Below are positions 49,199 to 57,010 of a stretch of 64,000 nt of DNA, piece after piece. Position numbers and translations under genes: made by a program. The notes beneath the pieces are model-generated. The model was not told where the DNA came from. It saw only the letters and a list, made by a program, of their open reading frames with translations, and made no database searches. The first letter of the stretch is position 1. Every line of letters begins with the position of its first letter. The DNA is from an uncultured Acidimicrobiales bacterium (GTDB lineage Bacteria > Actinomycetota > Acidimicrobiia > Acidimicrobiales > SZUA-35): NCBI GenBank assembly GCA_938021675.1, contig CALIFY010000052.1:1-64000 (forward strand). The letters are read 5' to 3'.

Positions 49199-50443
49199 CT
49201 ATGGAAGGACGTGGACCGGCGTGCCGTCCGGTATCTCGGCCGGAAGATACTCGGCGATGTGCATGGGAACCCGGACGCAGCCGTGGCTCGCGGGACCGAG
49301 CGGGACCGACTCGGATCCATGGAACGCGATGCCGCCGTTAAAATAGAGCGGGTTGTAGAGCCGCCCGATGTCCAGGCTCGATTCACGCCAACCGTTGATT
49401 CGTCGTTCGACGTGGAAATCGCCGAGCGGAGTGATCGAACTTCCGCTGTACTCCTCGTTCTCCCATGCGATGCCGCTGCCGGTCGATACGTGGCTGACAA
49501 GGGTTGGCGTCTTGGCACCGGGGTCGTAGATCTTGACCAGCTGCTCTGACAGATCGACCTCGACCCAGCGCTGGTCATGATCACGCTCCGGCGTCCCGAT
49601 CTTGCCATCCGATAGCTGTTGCCATGCATACTCGTCGAGCGGTCCCCAGTTGCCGTCGACGGGAACGCCGGCCAGTTTTTCCAACGCCCACACCGCCTCG
49701 ACCGTCTTCGTTCCGTATCCGCCGTCGGTCGTTCCTGGGTCGAACGGGCCGCTGGCAAGTCGTTTCTGAAGTGTCTCGACACCGGCGTTGTCGTCGCCGG
49801 CGGACAACGACAAGCCGTCATATTCGAAGCTGGCGAGCTCGACGATGGTCTCCTCATCGGCCTCGCCCGATTGGTTGAGCCCGGTCAGCGTTTGGAATGC
49901 CCTGACCGATCGCTCGGTGCCGTCGCCGTAGTCACCGTCGGCGGTGCCGGGACCGAATCCGAGCTCGGCGAGGCGTTCCTGCAGAATGAGGACATCGTTC
50001 CCATCGTCGCCGGGCCCGACCGCTACCAGTCGGCCGTCGTCGACTGGAGCCAGCGCCTGCTCGTCGTCCGAAGCGTTCGGCGCCGCTTGTTCATCGTCGG
50101 GGGCATCGACTTCGTTTGCGCTGTCTTCGGCCGCCCGAGTCAACGAAGTCGGTTCGTCAACGCCGCCGTCGGCCGTTGCATCGTCGCTCGGCTCCTGCTC
50201 GGATCGTCCGGGGGTACCTCCACGGGCGTCGTCGCTGGACCCAACCGAGTCGCCGGTCGCCGAGTCCGACGATCCGGTATCGGCGGTAGGCCTATCGGTG
50301 GTCGGTGTGGTCGCCGGTACCGCGGTCGTTGCCGAGGTTGCCGACTGGTCAGGGATCGGCGCCGTCTCGAGTTGAGCGCTCGTGCACGCCGCGGCTGGCA
50401 GCGTCATCGCAAAAAGCACGGAACAGCAAAAAGCACGGTACAT
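49199..50443 (-). CDS. L,D-transpeptidase lipoprotein with two peptidoglycan-binding domains
   Basis: 414 residues from an ATG with GGAG upstream. Signal with lipobox-like AAAC (LPAAACTSA), a long Ser/Thr/Asp/Glu disordered linker to about 145, two PG_binding_1 repeats (LILQERLAELGFGPGTADGDYG; TLQKRLASGPFDPGTTDGGYG), then the YkuD catalytic domain with Cys in ASHGCVRVPM and the upstream His in AFHGSES. Forms 3-3 crosslinks in peptidoglycan outside the membrane. Confidence 0.93.
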   Translation of the reverse strand: MYRAFCCSVLFAMTLPAAACTSAQLETAPIPDQSATSATTAVPATTPTTDRPTADTGSSDSATGDSVGSSDDARGGTPGRSEQEPSDDATADGGVDEPTSLTRAAEDSANEVDAPDDEQAAPNASDDEQALAPVDDGRLVAVGPGDDGNDVLILQERLAELGFGPGTADGDYGDGTERSVRAFQTLTGLNQSGEADEETIVELASFEYDGLSLSAGDDNAGVETLQKRLASGPFDPGTTDGGYGTKTVEAVWALEKLAGVPVDGNWGPLDEYAWQQLSDGKIGTPERDHDQRWVEVDLSEQLVKIYDPGAKTPTLVSHVSTGSGIAWENEEYSGSSITPLGDFHVERRINGWRESSLDIGRLYNPLYFNGGIAFHGSESVPLGPASHGCVRVPMHIAEYLPAEIPDGTPVHVLP

Positions 50444-50650
50444 AAGTCGTCTCCGCCCCACGTCGACCCTCCTCGTTGCGCCCTCTAGTGACAAAGACGT
50501 GTGAAGGAGGCAAACCGTTCCCTCCGGTATGTGGCAATACCGTTACGGCCTCGACCCAGTCCGACGCTCGACGAGCGTTGTGGTGCCGATGGCCTAGTCG
50601 CTTCAATCGCACTACCTCCCATCGGGCACGACTCGGGTGGTGTTGTTTAC

Positions 50651-50707: not shown

Positions 50708-51265
50708 ATGAGCGAGAATCTCCGGACCTTCGTGAAGGCTCTGTACGGTTTTGATGCTGTCGTGTCTCGGGTTCCGGCCACGGCATGGTCGAACGAGTCA
50801 CCGTGCGAAGGTTGGACCGCGACCGATGTGGTGGCACACAACATCGGGATGAATCACATGATCACCGGGTTCACCAACGCCGTCGATGCCGTCGGCCCTG
50901 CCCATGACGCGGTGATCGACGCGCCAACCGCGTGGGGTGAGTCGCTCGATACGGTGTTGGCCGCCATCGATTCGAAAGGGGCGCTCCAGGTGGAAGCCAG
51001 CACCCCATGGGGTGACATGCCGGTCGATACGTTTCTCGGCTTTGCCTGGGTCGATCCTCTTACCCACACCTGGGACCTGGCCTGCGCCACCGGGCAGGAC
51101 GCAGCACTCGATTCATTGTTGTGTGGGCGAGGTCTGGCCCAGTTGGAGCGGGCCGGTGATTCGCTCCGCGGTTCCGGCGCGTTCGGGCCGGCGGTTGAGG
51201 TGGCCGACGATGCGTCGGTCGTCGATCGCTTTATCGCCATCACCGGTCGCGACCCGGTCCGCTGA
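50708..51265 (+). CDS. DinB/TIGR03086 family protein
   Basis: 185 residues, helical bundle of the mycothiol-dependent enzyme superfamily: PATAWSNESPCEGWTATDVVAHNIGMNHM contains the conserved His, and DPLTHTWDLACATGQD is the second family block. Members include metal-dependent mycothiol transferases and uncharacterised proteins. It is 4 bases upstream of the nickel/cobalt permease gene, so they form an operon. Confidence 0.85.
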   Translation: MSENLRTFVKALYGFDAVVSRVPATAWSNESPCEGWTATDVVAHNIGMNHMITGFTNAVDAVGPAHDAVIDAPTAWGESLDTVLAAIDSKGALQVEASTPWGDMPVDTFLGFAWVDPLTHTWDLACATGQDAALDSLLCGRGLAQLERAGDSLRGSGAFGPAVEVADDASVVDRFIAITGRDPVR

Positions 51266-51269
51266 AACG

Positions 51270-52280
51270 GTGAGCGTAAGTTTTGCTCTGACCGCCCTGG
51301 TGCTCGGCATACGGCACGGCATCGATTGGGATCACATCGCGGCCATCGCCGATCTAACCAGCACGGCCGAGAACCGTCGCAAAGGATTCGTTCTTTCGTT
51401 GCTCTACGCGGTGGGTCACGGCGTCGTCGTCCTCGTCCTCGGAATGTTGGCCATCTTGCTCGGCGCGGTCATCCCGGAGTGGCTTGAGGAATGGATGGGG
51501 TACGTGGTCGGCGGCACGTTGATCGCCCTCGGGCTTTGGATCGTGGTCGACCTCATCCGACGAGGCCGTGACTTTCGGCTGCGAAGCCGGTGGATGCTGA
51601 TTCTCGATGGAACCTTTGCTGGGTTCAGAGCCGTCCGGTCCAAAAACGGACATCGCGTCGTGGCCCTCGAACATGAACATGAACATGAACATGAGGCTGG
51701 TGAAGGTCTGGCCCACGGCGAACACCCGGCTCATGATCACGCCCACATCGACGATGGTGCCGCCGATCCGCTAATCGATACGTCGGACATCGAAGCGATT
51801 GCCCCTCAGAGTCGAGCGTCCGGTGAACGGTGGGCAGCTAGCACGGGGATCGCTCGACGAATCCGGACGGCGTTGGCCAGTCACCGCTCGACGTATCGGC
51901 ACTCGCATCGACATCATCACGAACTCCATCTCCCGTCCGAAAGCACGGCATCGCCAACCGGTCGTTCCGGCAATGCGATGGCGGCCGGTGTTGGCATGCT
52001 CCACGGCGTCGGTGTCGAGAGCCCAACCCAGATCGCCATCTTCGTCGCCTCGACATCGTTGGTCGGCGTCCAGGCCGGGATGTTGTTGCTGGTCGCCTGG
52101 GTCGCCGGATTGATCGTGGCCAACTCGGTGATCGCCGTTCTGGCCGGGTTTGGCGTGCTCAACGCAGAACGCAACTTCGTGGTCTATGTGGCCGTCGCGT
52201 TGTTCGTCGCCGCCGGCAGTGTTGTCATGGGCGTACTGCTCTTGTTGGGCATTGATGCACTTCCCAGCTTGTCGCCCTGA
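51270..52280 (+). CDS. Nickel/cobalt permease (NiCoT/NicO-type) with His-rich loop
   Basis: 336 residues from the GTG at 51270, four bases after the preceding stop. Helix II carries the HX4DH signature essential for Ni/Co recognition (RHGIDWDHIAAIAD; His16, Asp21, His22). The large middle loop is unusually rich in histidine (ALEHEHEHEHEAGEG, GEHPAHDHAHIDDG, YRHSHRHHHELH), probably a metal-binding reservoir. About six to eight membrane helices in all. It transports Ni or Co across the cytoplasmic membrane; direction (uptake or NicO/RcnA-like efflux) is not settled, and His-rich loops are commoner in the latter. Confidence 0.88.
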   Translation: MSVSFALTALVLGIRHGIDWDHIAAIADLTSTAENRRKGFVLSLLYAVGHGVVVLVLGMLAILLGAVIPEWLEEWMGYVVGGTLIALGLWIVVDLIRRGRDFRLRSRWMLILDGTFAGFRAVRSKNGHRVVALEHEHEHEHEAGEGLAHGEHPAHDHAHIDDGAADPLIDTSDIEAIAPQSRASGERWAASTGIARRIRTALASHRSTYRHSHRHHHELHLPSESTASPTGRSGNAMAAGVGMLHGVGVESPTQIAIFVASTSLVGVQAGMLLLVAWVAGLIVANSVIAVLAGFGVLNAERNFVVYVAVALFVAAGSVVMGVLLLLGIDALPSLSP

Positions 52281-52571: not shown

Positions 52572-52651
52572 ACTCGACGCAGCGGGACTGCGGTGGTTTG
52601 TTGCTGCCGCAGACCCGCGGCGTGGGGTCATTGCCGCTGGCGGCGTCGAGT
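52572..52651. terminator. Large nested hairpin between convergent genes
   Basis: Inner stem GCGGGaCTGCGG (52582-52593) with CCGCAGaCCCGC (52607-52618), one mismatch, 13-base loop. Outer arms ACTCGACGC (52572-52580) and GCGTCGAGT (52643-52651) pair perfectly. It separates the small membrane protein from the convergent TPR gene and probably terminates both. Confidence 0.7.
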
Positions 52652-54066
52652 CATTGCCGGCTTGTGGTAAGTATCGCATCGGCACGAGCGGTCGCCGCCG
52701 CTGCTCGGTCGTCTGCGCCGGTTGCGGCCAGGACATTCGCGTAGCGCCGCCAGGTCGGTTCATGATCGGGCCAACGGCCCGTTCGGGCGGCCAGTAACTG
52801 TCTGGCCATTTGGTTGTCGCCGGCCCGCCGTACCATATCGACGATCTCCATCTCGAACAGGTCCCGCTGCGCATGGCTGCCCCCGATCGGGGCCAGCTCG
52901 TCACGGAGCGGTAGCACGATGGCCGCGGCCTCGATCTGTCGGCCCGCGGCATCGTGGAGCAGGCCGTGTCCCAATGGGATGGCTATGTCTAGGTCGGCTG
53001 TATCGATTGCCGGTTCCCGAGTAAGTCGAGCGGTGCGATGCTCCGTGAGCGACGCCAAATATCGCTCCAGCTCATCGAGGCGGCCGGTCCGGGCCAGAGC
53101 AAGGCAACAGTGAACGTCGGTGAAGGTGAGTACGTGATCGCCGGTCCGATCGACAGCATGTTGGCCGAGCTCACCCCAACGGTCGCCGACGTCCACACCG
53201 GCCAGTTCCAACCGGGCCAGCAGCGACACTCTGTTTTGGATGTCGAGATAGAAGTCGGTGCTGGACGGGACGATCCGCTCGTCGTAGAGGGCGAGGACTT
53301 GGTCGTGTAGCCCAGCTCCGTAGGGAAACAGTGCGGCGTGCCACCAGAGGTGCCCACGAAACGGGTTTTTCGTGGCCCACAGGTCACCGTGGGCGGCCAC
53401 CGTCAACTCGTCAAAAAACTCGACTCCGGCCTTGTGGTCGCCGAGCATCTCCAACGAATGAGCGACGGCGTGAATAGACCACAGGTCTTCCCGGTTCCGG
53501 TCGACGGCCAGCCGTCCGATCCGTCCCGCTTCCTCATAGCGTCCGCATTCGTTGAGGGCGAATGCCTGCATTCCGATCACGTGGTCGAAGCCGGGGGTCG
53601 CCTCGTCCCAGAATGGCCGAACGCCATCGACGGTCGAGCGGAGCGCGGTGGCTCGGCCGGTCCAGAACGTTGTGTAATGGTGTAGTTTGAGAGCGAGCAG
53701 GTCCAGCGGCTCGTCGGCCAGGATTCGGTCCCACTGTTGTGCGGCACCTCTCAGATCTCCAGCGGCCCAGGCCGTGAGCGCGGTGACGTGGCCTCGCTCC
53801 CGCCCGGTCATCGACCGGCCGTTCAACAACGCGGTGGCCATGGCCGACACGCTCCGTTGGGTTCCAGAGGCTTCGACCATCAGCATCATCGCGCCCCGGA
53901 GCACCGAGGCCATGACCAGGTCGGGGTGATCGGCCACGACCTGCTTGAGCACGGGCCCAGCGGCCAGCTCGTAATCGAGGAACTGTGACAGCGCGTCATC
54001 GTAGGCGGAGGCACCGCCGGGGTCGGCGCCCGTCATCGGCAAATCTCGGATGTCGGTGATCGTCAC
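52651..54066 (-). CDS. TTC38-like tetratricopeptide protein
   Basis: 471 residues, helical throughout. Long alpha-alpha repeats of the TTC38 type: LLALKLHHYTTFWTGRATALRSTVDGVRPFW, HVIGMQAFALNECGRYEEAGRIGRLAV and SIHAVAHSLEMLGDHKAGVEFFDEL, with GHLWWHAALFPYGAGLHDQVLALYD. Soluble scaffold of unknown role. GTG start. Downstream of the sulfotransferase-like gene in the same direction by about 40 bases, so perhaps part of that operon. Confidence 0.8.
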   Translation of the reverse strand: MTITDIRDLPMTGADPGGASAYDDALSQFLDYELAAGPVLKQVVADHPDLVMASVLRGAMMLMVEASGTQRSVSAMATALLNGRSMTGRERGHVTALTAWAAGDLRGAAQQWDRILADEPLDLLALKLHHYTTFWTGRATALRSTVDGVRPFWDEATPGFDHVIGMQAFALNECGRYEEAGRIGRLAVDRNREDLWSIHAVAHSLEMLGDHKAGVEFFDELTVAAHGDLWATKNPFRGHLWWHAALFPYGAGLHDQVLALYDERIVPSSTDFYLDIQNRVSLLARLELAGVDVGDRWGELGQHAVDRTGDHVLTFTDVHCCLALARTGRLDELERYLASLTEHRTARLTREPAIDTADLDIAIPLGHGLLHDAAGRQIEAAAIVLPLRDELAPIGGSHAQRDLFEMEIVDMVRRAGDNQMARQLLAARTGRWPDHEPTWRRYANVLAATGADDRAAAATARADAILTTSRQ

Positions 54067-54105: not shown

Positions 54106-54834
54106 TCAGCCGATCCGAAAGGGAAGGAGTCGTCGATACATCGCCTCAGCCTCGTCGAGCACCGGGGCGAGGCTCGGTGCGAGCACATCGTCCTTCGCTC
54201 GCCATGGGTCCCATCCGGTCGATCGGTGAACTCCGTCGTACCAATACGGGGCCCACACGCCATCCTCCGGTTTCGGGCCGGCCGGCCACGACAGCATCGC
54301 GTCATCGAACCTGAGGCTGAGGCGCTCGCAGAGTTCGCTGAGGACGCCTCGAGGGTCTGTCAGTAAGAGCTTCGCGTCGATCACGGTTGGCCGACCGCCG
54401 CCGGCGACGACGGCATCGGCCAGTGCGACGAGTTCGACGAAACCGGTGTCGTCGATGGTGGCGTCCGGCAGATTTTTCTGCAGTGACGTCAGCATTTCCC
54501 ACGGATCGCGAGTCAACAGAACAGTATCAAAACCGTCGAGCACGACACGGTGGTCTAACCCGACGAGATGCTTCGCCATCTGCTTGAAGAAGACGACTTC
54601 GCTGTCGTACGAGCCGAACATGACCTCTCGAATGACGGACGCGCCGTCGGGCGATTGGGAGGCCAGAACTTCCGCCGCTCCCGGGTGGTCTCGGCCCGTC
54701 TGGTGGAGGTAGTGGGCGTAGAGCGGTTCGTCGACGACCGTTGTGTCGGCCCGTTCCCGCCACGAGTACATCAACGCGGTCGACAGGTTTCGGGGACTTG
54801 ACCACATATTGATTCGGCGGACTCGATCGCCCAT
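54106..54834 (-). CDS. Sulfotransferase-like P-loop protein
   Basis: 242 residues. N-terminal phosphosulfate-binding-like loop RINMWSSPRNLSTALMYSWRER, later VLLTRDPWEMLTSLQKN (3'-phosphate-binding-like Arg and Ser). Such domains transfer sulfuryl from PAPS; a kinase-like role is possible in distant members. It begins 5 bases after the stop of the class IV aminotransferase. In plants the same two domains are found as one polypeptide (branched-chain aminotransferase-like proteins), suggesting joint action. Confidence 0.75.
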   Translation of the reverse strand: MGDRVRRINMWSSPRNLSTALMYSWRERADTTVVDEPLYAHYLHQTGRDHPGAAEVLASQSPDGASVIREVMFGSYDSEVVFFKQMAKHLVGLDHRVVLDGFDTVLLTRDPWEMLTSLQKNLPDATIDDTGFVELVALADAVVAGGGRPTVIDAKLLLTDPRGVLSELCERLSLRFDDAMLSWPAGPKPEDGVWAPYWYDGVHRSTGWDPWRAKDDVLAPSLAPVLDEAEAMYRRLLPFRIG

Positions 54835-54839
54835 GGGGG

Positions 54840-55763
54840 TTACCGTGACTGGACCACGTCGGCCGCCACCGCCTGGTGGTATCGATCTCGCAGGTGGATG
54901 GTCAAAGGCCCGGCCCCGTTTCCGGTCCCGATGGTTCGGCCATCGACGGACCGCACCGGGGTCAACCCGCCGAACGTCCCGGTCACGAAGGCCTCCGCCG
55001 CGGCGTACACGTCGGTGAGGGTGTATGGCTTTTCGGCGATTGGGGTGCCGTCGACCGCGGCCTGTTCAAGAATGACTGCCCGGGTAATCCCTTGAAGGTT
55101 GTAGTGGCCGGTCGAGGTCCACAGTTCACCGCGCTTGGTGACGATGAAGAAATTGGTTGCGTTGCAGGTGGCGACCGCTCCGGTCGGGTCGAGCATCAAC
55201 GCTTCGTCAGCTCCGGCTTCGACGGCCTGAATCAACGCGATGACTTCATGGAGTTTCGAGTGGCAGTTGAGCCGTTGGTCGAGTGTGTCCGGTGGTGGTC
55301 GTCGGACCGTGGCGGTGAACAGCGAAATTCCTTGGTCGGTCACTGCGGGGTCGGCTCGTTTGTGTTCAGCGATAATGACGACATTGGGGCCACCGACCAC
55401 ATTCGACGGATGTTGGGATGGCGTTGACTTGTCGCCTCGGGTGACCATCAGCCGGACGTGGACCTGGTCGAACATGTTGTTTGCTTCGACCGTGGACCGT
55501 AGCGCCCGCACTAGCTCGGATCTTGGTGGGAGGTCGAGACTGATCGCCTTGGCCCCAGCTTCGAGCCGATCGAGATGTCGGTCGAGGAACACCAACGTCC
55601 CGTTGGAGAGTCGGATCCCTTCCCATACCCCATCCCCGACGAGAAAACCACTGTCGAAGACCGAAATTTTGGCCTCGGCCCGGGGAATGAGCTCACCGTT
55701 GATGTGGATGAGGATCGTGGCGTTTCGGCCGTCGGGAACGGCAGCGTGGGTGCTGGCAACCAT
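54840..55763 (-). CDS. Class IV PLP aminotransferase (BCAT / D-amino acid type)
   Basis: 307 residues. ISVFDSGFLVGDGVWEGIRLSNG at the N-terminus, PLP-binding Lys in NCHSKLHEVIALIQAVEAGADEALML, and the GITRAVIL block that anchors the PLP phosphate. Transaminates branched-chain or D-amino acids, or is an aminodeoxychorismate lyase-like member. Its ATG overlaps the stop of the preceding L,D-transpeptidase gene, and the sulfotransferase-like gene follows closely. Confidence 0.9.
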   Translation of the reverse strand: MVASTHAAVPDGRNATILIHINGELIPRAEAKISVFDSGFLVGDGVWEGIRLSNGTLVFLDRHLDRLEAGAKAISLDLPPRSELVRALRSTVEANNMFDQVHVRLMVTRGDKSTPSQHPSNVVGGPNVVIIAEHKRADPAVTDQGISLFTATVRRPPPDTLDQRLNCHSKLHEVIALIQAVEAGADEALMLDPTGAVATCNATNFFIVTKRGELWTSTGHYNLQGITRAVILEQAAVDGTPIAEKPYTLTDVYAAAEAFVTGTFGGLTPVRSVDGRTIGTGNGAGPLTIHLRDRYHQAVAADVVQSR

Positions 55764-56764
55764 CAGACACCGTCAACTTTGGGGCCGGCGGTGTCGTCCG
55801 CGCCATCGAGGATCGAGACGGGGGTGCCGAGAGGCAAGAACTGCACCATCTCCTCTATGGTTGGATTGGCCACCCGAATGCAGCCGTGGCTTACGTCTTG
55901 CCCGATGAGCGCTGGCTGATTCGTACCGTGGATTCCTATCACTCCCTCACCTCCGTTGAAGGAGTCTAGGGTCTCGCTGAACCCCGAGAGACCGTAGGCG
56001 TACGGTCCATAGACGCTGTCGGGGTCGGTGGAACGCAGAAGTTCGATGAGGTAAAAGTCGCCGATCGGTGTCGGCGTCGCACCGGTCCCAATCGCCACCG
56101 TGGTTGTCGAATGAACGCGTCCTCGATGGAAAATCGTCAGCTCGTGGGCCGAGGTGTCAACCGTAATGCGATACGGATTCTGGGTCAGGTCGACGTCGGC
56201 CCGCTCCACCCAACCCGTCGTACCATTCGGTCGGACCGGAAGTTGGACCTCCAACCAATCACCGCTGCGTTGGCCGGTAGCCAGGAATACCAGTGGGCCG
56301 CCCCGGTCGGTTGGATTGGTGAACGAAGCGACCGGTTGCGCCGCCTCGTCTGGTCTTGTTCTCGGCTCGATGTCGTCGACGGTGGCGTGGGCTACCGTCG
56401 TGCTCTCTTCGGTGACGGTCAGCTCCTCGTCGACGATGGAGAAGCCTGTTTTGGCTGCCGATGTTGAGCCGGATCGAGCGGCGGCACGCCCGCGTTGGCC
56501 CAGGATTTCCAGGTCAGCCTGGCCCCGAAAGGATGGATTCACGGCGAGTTCAGCGGTGGCATGGGGGTCGTTTGGATCGGTCAGTGTCTGGCCGGGCTGA
56601 TGGTGAAACGGTCCGACGATGGTGGCAACCACGGCCGTCGCCGCTCCGGTTATTCCCCAGAAGACGAGGGCTGATGACACCAGGAGCTGGCTAGATCGAG
56701 CTCCGGGATGTGTCTGACCTTGTGCCGATATCGCCCTACGGCCGTGTTTCGGCCCGGCTCGCAT
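55763..56764 (-). CDS. Membrane-anchored L,D-transpeptidase
   Basis: About 333 residues from the ATG at 56764 (a TTG at 56806 would add 14). A single membrane segment near the N-terminus (SSALVFWGITGAATAVVATIV), an SH3-like region (GDWLEVQLPVRPNGTTGWVE), then the YkuD domain: ELTIFHRGRVHSTTTVAIG, IGIHGTNQPALIG with His, and catalytic Cys in SHGCIRVANP. Crosslinks peptidoglycan. It overlaps the aminotransferase gene at its 3' end, so the three genes 56764 to 54106 form an operon. Confidence 0.92.
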   Translation of the reverse strand: MRAGPKHGRRAISAQGQTHPGARSSQLLVSSALVFWGITGAATAVVATIVGPFHHQPGQTLTDPNDPHATAELAVNPSFRGQADLEILGQRGRAAARSGSTSAAKTGFSIVDEELTVTEESTTVAHATVDDIEPRTRPDEAAQPVASFTNPTDRGGPLVFLATGQRSGDWLEVQLPVRPNGTTGWVERADVDLTQNPYRITVDTSAHELTIFHRGRVHSTTTVAIGTGATPTPIGDFYLIELLRSTDPDSVYGPYAYGLSGFSETLDSFNGGEGVIGIHGTNQPALIGQDVSHGCIRVANPTIEEMVQFLPLGTPVSILDGADDTAGPKVDGV

Positions 56765-57010
56765 GCCGTGGCGAGACGAGGAAGGAGCCTGTCGCACCTC
56801 ACGCAAGTTAGTCGCTCAATGCCCTCCTGCCTACAGCTGATGCAATCGGCATCGCTGCGAAACGACCGGTGTCACCGCTCACGAGGGTTCCCCGACGGCC
56901 GATATGCCGCTCACGTTCTCGCTTGGGCAGCCGATACCAGGAGAGTGGCTGACAACGGGTATGGATCGAATGCGGTGTTGGTGCCGCGCTATCGGCGGGT
57001 TGGGCTCCGA

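Follow-up and report, generated by a model that had tools for sequence, protein, structure and literature searches.

A sulfotransferase that is consistently accompanied by a lysine-less class IV aminotransferase-fold protein in several bacterial phyla

What could a sulfotransferase and an aminotransferase-fold protein do together when their genes lie side by side? The question is raised by a stretch of 64,000 nucleotides from an uncultured Acidimicrobiales bacterium (contig CALIFY010000052.1), hereafter termed the window. The gene for a class IV aminotransferase-fold protein (AT) is followed there by a sulfotransferase gene (ST), the AT stop codon and the ST start codon being five bases apart (54835–54839; Table 1). 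This arrangement, described in the original prediction, agrees with the open reading frames and with Pfam, where AT passes PF01063 Aminotran_4 (140.6 bits, cut-off 28.5) and ST passes PF19798 Sulfotransfer_5 (145.1 bits, cut-off 23.2). ST is a stand-alone reading frame whose nearest genes encode YkuD, AT and a TPR-like protein; the stop codon of the YkuD gene shares one base with the AT start codon (TGATG). Judged by eye, the window also has a second L,D-transpeptidase-like gene at 49199–50494 and a reading frame at 50937–52280 with nickel/cobalt transporter-like motifs and a His-rich loop.

Table 1. Coordinates of the genes and residues discussed (positions in the window) and of three plasmid operons (positions in the respective locus).
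Feature	Position	Strand	Remarks
AT, class IV aminotransferase-fold protein	54840–55763	−	307 aa, ATG start; Asn-type, lysine-less; PF01063
ST, sulfotransferase	54106–54834	−	242 aa, ATG start; PF19798
YkuD L,D-transpeptidase gene	55763–56806		Directly upstream of AT; Pfam
TPR-like gene	52651–54066		Begins 39 bases past ST
AT Asn166 codon, Schiff-base lysine column	55266–55268	−	PDB alignments and family alignment
AT Thr199 and Cys200 codons	55164–55169	−	Family alignment; Thr199 is the pyridine N1 Glu site
ST Arg15, first loop (PRNLST)	54790–54792	−	R in 43/43 alignment rows
ST Glu36, candidate catalytic base	54727–54729	−	E in 43/43 rows
ST Lys84, candidate catalytic lysine (putative role)	54583–54585	−	K in 43/43 rows
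ST Arg109 to Ser117, 3'-phosphate-binding motif (R-x7-S)	54484–54510	−	R and S in 43/43 rows
Asn-type AT operons on plasmids	L142: 4250–11697; L145: 5924–12509; L146: 5249–12473		ABC transporter, ClC chloride channel, ProC

AT belongs to fold type IV, with Foldseek TM scores of 0.88–0.92 to 7z79 and 0.83–0.90 to archaeal branched-chain aminotransferases. Its nearest solved structures (50–51% identity, same fold) are 7z79, an aminotransferase-like protein of Variovorax paradoxus, and the mutant 9j32; unlike the window pair, these entries, compared here by structure and sequence, name no sulfotransferase in their titles. IlvE, D-amino acid transaminase and aminodeoxychorismate lyase share the fold type, PF01063 and the phosphate-cup positions with AT. 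In NCBIfam, none of the 19 models that AT touched gave a score above its curated cut-off, and the identity of AT as IlvE was rejected (best model 223 bits against a cut-off of 363; ilvE_I 178.9 against 245.55). Another gene of the same genome (L002) passes ilvE_II (289.2 against 250.05) and retains the lysine in a KGGANY motif, so the window AT is not the sole candidate for the branched-chain aminotransferase job.

Canonical class IV enzymes carry a Schiff-base lysine, whereas the window AT does not. In the PDB alignments this column is occupied by Lys in 5cm0, 5e25 and 5mqz (IKSLNYL) and by Asn in 7z79 and in AT (Asn166); 9j32 is the N174K mutant of 7z79 and hence has Lys there. Over 200 aligned rows, some of which represent one gene fetched twice, the column holds Asn in 159, His in 14 and Lys in 27. 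At the Thr199 column, where the Glu of canonical members presumably contacts the pyridine N1, the Asn rows have Thr (150) or Ser (9), the His rows Glu (14), and the Lys rows Glu (26) or Asp (1). The Tyr at +4 is also replaced in the Asn type, which together with the loss of the N1 Glu counts against standard PLP chemistry. The Asn type retains Arg51, Thr227 and Thr/Ser263, which we take to be the phosphate cup. The absence of the catalytic lysine makes ordinary transamination unlikely; thus, the fold and family part of the earlier aminotransferase assignment stands and the activity that the name implies probably does not. These genes are often annotated as 'aminotransferase class IV', a label naming an activity that the sequence speaks against.

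The Asn and His rows have further residues in common. Both share Trp47 (Phe in 27/27 Lys rows), His102 (Tyr in 25/27 Lys rows) and Asn201, which the Lys rows do not have; Glu133 and Asp162 are almost invariant in the Asn and His rows, unlike in the Lys rows. Judged from these columns, the two clades have a common remodelled site that their Lys-type relatives do not share. One of the AT retrievals used the patterns AGADEALM and ATCN[AS]T[NH]F, keeping 80 of 578 relatives; since the latter pattern contains ATCN, the conservation of T199-C200-N201 is biased in that retrieval, and N166 lies outside both patterns. Other retrievals show variants of the ATCN region, e.g. NTTNACNF. In a 67-row tree of the quick kind, whose Lys-type rows are all from Actinomycetota, the Asn, His and Lys states each fall on one side of a branch with support of 99–100, and the split is unchanged after removal of the motif columns. 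The pyridine-nitrogen contact column follows the same division, Thr or Ser accompanying Asn, and Glu accompanying His. The loss of the lysine is, by this phylogeny, a family trait and not a peculiarity of the window AT.

The second protein is more readily assigned. Its model has a mean pLDDT of 96.4, and the first 15 Foldseek matches, as well as the first ten VIA-align rows (Z 15.5 to 13.0), are all sulfotransferases; NCBIfam gave no match for ST. The closest folds are tyrosylprotein sulfotransferases (Z 15.5 to 14.4) and the sulfotransferase domains of olefin synthase and CurM (15.1 and 15.0). The same two domains (4gox, 4gbm) are the best matches of the ST profile against the PDB (E 1.2e-7 and 1.7e-7), over profile positions 82–189 of 236 only, and no other match combines a passing stretch with E < 0.001; the next are designed repeat proteins (1.3e-4) that lack a passing stretch. 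Shikimate kinase appears at rank 16 of the Foldseek matches (E 6.9e-4), just ahead of another sulfotransferase. A kinase reading of ST was rejected on this ranking, and the kinase activity that had been proposed as an option for this protein finds no support.

The 4gox and 4gbm domains share with ST both the fold and the 3'-phosphate motif. ST Arg109–Ser117 aligns with LVRHPYAVIESF of 4gox, and the Arg and Ser are also aligned in 4gbm. We take R-x7-S to be the 3'-phosphate motif of ST and an Arg/Lys to mark its 5' loop, Arg15 presumably occupying the position of the 5'-phosphosulfate-loop Lys/Arg of sulfotransferase structures; Glu36 is a candidate catalytic base by analogy with TPST2. An APS kinase is encoded in the window's genome and in 23/23 Actinomycetota genomes that have both AT and ST, compared with 148/323 of the others (171/346 overall; Fisher p = 4e-8, with kinship ignored and 13 of the 23 genomes sharing one family code). 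From its fold, the R-x7-S motif and the APS kinase, ST is probably a PAPS-dependent sulfotransferase. As an illustration, Sulfotransfer_5 paralogues were seen 1.7–6.4 kb from an APS kinase gene in 13 genomes picked by eye; genomes with such a second paralogue include G231, G241, G251, G260 and G394. The ST of a Dolichospermum plasmid (entry L139) is also near cysC.

How regularly do the two proteins occur together? In the sample of the window's order, the pair-type ST was defined by at least 139 bits with the single window sequence (the next row has 86) and was found in 20/148 genomes. In the phylum sample it was defined by at least 286 bits with a profile (next 170), which separates 23/346 Actinomycetota from a lower class of matches (39 genomes had ST matches, 16 of them of the lower class only). 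The AT was counted there at 294 bits or more (23 genomes) and excluded at 263 or less; all 24 AT loci of the lower-scoring class that were read have Lys. The order and phylum samples share only the window's own genome among their ST-positive lists. The pair-type ST was further found in 32/349 Pseudomonadota and 26/198 Bacteroidota, so that the pair is not rare in other bacteria.

In the genomes read here the ST depends on the AT: the pair-type ST is always accompanied by a Lys-less AT-fold protein. This holds for 100/100 genomes from four samples (20 + 22 + 32 + 26), or 97/97 without the three sampling centres G000, G476 and G477, which have the AT by construction. The AT and ST genome lists are identical in the 346 Actinomycetota (23 and 23, from eight family codes, 13 genomes being in one, kinship ignored). 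All 11 AT-bearing genomes among 190 Pseudomonadota, which by their handles appear to be a subset of the 349, are ST-bearing in the larger sample. On the level of loci, 52 of 61 ST loci have an AT, Lys-less in every case (45 Asn, 7 His), and nine have no AT nearby; five of the 52 were reached via AT loci, and the ST search alone gives 47/47 Lys-less. No Lys-type AT was seen beside a pair-type ST in the loci read. In the order sample the AT is on the same locus as the ST in 19/20 genomes, and the remaining genome (G077) has it on another contig (L114). In all, eight genomes have the AT far from the ST or on another contig (G077, G693, G807, G714, G571, G696, G671 and G726). Such near-perfect co-occurrence in several phyla makes the pair a small testable unit of uncharacterised metabolism.

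The Asn-type pairs are mostly in the order AT-ST, usually separated by anything from a few bases to several tens. His-type pairs are in the order ST-AT (7/7 in each of two locus sets, plus G998), as are two Asn-type pairs (L168, L170), and three Asn-type pairs are on opposite strands. The order in L129 is AT-ST by match coordinates, a long overlapping frame mimicking ST-AT. Plant branched-chain-aminotransferase-like fusion proteins presumably join the same two domains, arranged as in the His clade (ST-AT); none of the 61 ST loci that were scored encodes an AT-ST fusion. Should the plant fusion prove related, the bacterial pair would be a pointer to the function of the plant protein. The joint function that the original prediction read from adjacency and fusion is strongly supported by the coinciding presence lists, the two gene orders, the opposite-strand pairs and the co-occurrence without linkage.

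The STs linked to Asn- and His-type partners intermingle in a 47-row tree of the quick kind, with at least four forced changes for Asn and two for His; members of one ST family thus pair with both AT types. The correlation of AT and ST distances is weak (r = 0.27, n = 32; maximum of 999 permutations 0.19) and reaches 0.41 among 19 Asn pairs. Clustering of the neighbours over 80 loci and a wider set gave mostly lineage-specific genes, and no other gene recurs next to the pair in most of these loci. The broadest other cluster (about 261 aa) occurs in 16 loci at scattered positions. Ten cluster representatives belong to housekeeping or transport families, one having no family; the neighbours identified include argininosuccinate synthase, malic enzyme, MsrA, PfkB, AccA, DnaB, LptF/G, EamA and an AI-2E transporter. 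Since the neighbours are lineage-specific, the genomic context gives no pathway hint.

The dependence may not be mutual. Among 80 AT loci on genome contigs, 72 have an ST within 3 kb. As to the other eight, a pair-type ST is encoded elsewhere in three genomes, and two loci end at a contig edge; of the remaining five genomes, one has only a 140-bit, paralogue-level ST match and the other four gave no match at E 1e-30, which makes 5/80 AT loci in genomes with no pair-type ST, the completeness of these genomes being unstated. The AT was also found in 23 plasmid records, none of which was matched by tblastn with the window ST in the plasmid sequence itself, and no ST was seen in the seven plasmid AT regions read. 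The same search gave one plasmid record with a distant ST near cysC, and no AT is annotated in the region read of that record. Viral contigs scanned with a His-type AT gave no relative. Genomes and plasmids that have the AT and no detected ST indicate that the AT can perhaps work alone; the ST needs the AT, whereas the AT may not always need the ST.

We consider it fairly safe that ST and AT share a small substrate and take part in a single reaction sequence other than ordinary transamination. A sulfate leaving group would offer one way to connect them, an idea that comes from the best ST profile matches, olefin synthase and CurM, which sulfonate a hydroxyl before elimination. According to two articles, these domains use PAPS to sulfonate a beta-hydroxyl, and a thioesterase-linked decarboxylative loss follows (PMC3903477, PMC6274090). 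They are parts of polyketide synthases and work together with a thioesterase, whereas the window ST stands alone beside the AT. In the proposed sequence, ST would O-sulfonate a substrate resembling an amino acid or a keto acid at a hydroxyl and so convert this group into a leaving group; the Lys-less AT, binding PLP or PMP with no internal aldimine, would then expel the sulfate by elimination or dehydration. The His-type AT could use its His as a base, as in ColD and E1, and the Asn-type AT would rely on its reorganised site.

ColD and E1 are PMP-dependent dehydratases of fold type I in which the Lys is replaced by a His that acts as the base; their substrates are sugar nucleotides, their chemistry is elimination, and no sulfotransferase is known to be involved. 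Their His-for-Lys replacement matches the His clade of the AT, whereas the window's own clade has Asn. Classification of AT as a ColD/E1-type enzyme was rejected, AT being of fold IV with Asn166 and the His occurring only in a related clade.

The explanation as a whole, in which the dependence of ST on AT and a shared reaction are combined with the sulfate leaving group as the speculative part, is offered tentatively. The specific claim of a widespread two-protein enzyme, whose ST installs a sulfate leaving group and whose lysine-free PLP/PMP-fold partner (Asn or His) expels it, we rate as rather unlikely. If true, it would describe PLP-fold chemistry beyond what is known of class IV transaminases and lyases, carried out by an enzyme pair of several bacterial phyla, and of plants too should the plant fusion be equivalent. 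The function of the pair would account for a PLP-fold protein that dispenses with its lysine in two ways. Literature searches found no paper on the AT-ST pair, on At5g27410 or At3g05190, or on the Variovorax paradoxus structure 7z79, and the word 'sulfotransferase' does not occur in the available part of PMC9309667.

The chief rival to the leaving-group model is a non-catalytic AT-fold subunit, which would bind or present the acceptor, or sense PLP or an amino acid, and leave ST as the sole enzyme. Such a role would suit a protein that lacks the lysine in 173/173 Asn and His rows, has the N1 Glu and Tyr altered in the Asn type, and is present whenever the pair-type ST is; the AT model is also less certain around the active site (mean pLDDT 62 for residues 31–40 and 67 for 161–170). 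Nevertheless, conservation of the site is strong, with 83 columns reaching at least 97% in an alignment of 102 rows chosen for their similarity, the phosphate cup is retained, and a mere-subunit role hardly explains the AT without detectable ST in some genomes and plasmids. We regard this rival as possible and doubtful.

The same alignment bears on another alternative, that AT is still an ordinary PLP enzyme, either a slow lysine-free transaminase or a user of Lys170, and that ST sulfonates its product. Lys170, four residues past Asn166, is present in 102/102 of the similarity-picked rows, the fold and phosphate cup are intact, and the operons of some relatives also encode ProC and an ABC transporter of the basic-amino-acid type. 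However, 7z79 and the Ser-subtype members carry an Arg at residue 170, and members of the His clade carry a Leu, so there is no family-wide lysine at this place, and the genome has another branched-chain aminotransferase that retains its lysine. This makes an ordinary PLP enzyme distinctly unlikely.

Tyrosylprotein sulfotransferases are among the nearest folds of ST, and ST might accordingly modify the AT protein itself by TPST-like protein sulfation; we hold this to be very improbable, as the olefin synthase and CurM domains are equally close by fold and are the sole sequence-profile matches. A frozen operon with no functional coupling, as the usual AT-ST arrangement at short distance might suggest, is scarcely credible given both gene orders, opposite strands, coinciding presence lists, the lack of another recurrent neighbour and co-occurrence that survives broken linkage in 8/8 unlinked genomes.

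Some groups of the Asn-type AT are distinct in sequence or context. In Agrobacterium, Paracoccus and Thioclava the AT is accompanied by an ABC transporter of the lysine/arginine/ornithine type, by a ClC channel and by ProC, and the plasmid AT operons may hint at import of an amino acid and release of an anion. A subtype with a displaced cysteine, reading NTTNACNF in place of ATCNATNF, was observed in L140, L143 and L230–L237; its AT does not adjoin the ST in L230, L231 and L233–L237. The Ser-subtype ATs of plasmids group with two ST-linked ATs (L158 and L168).
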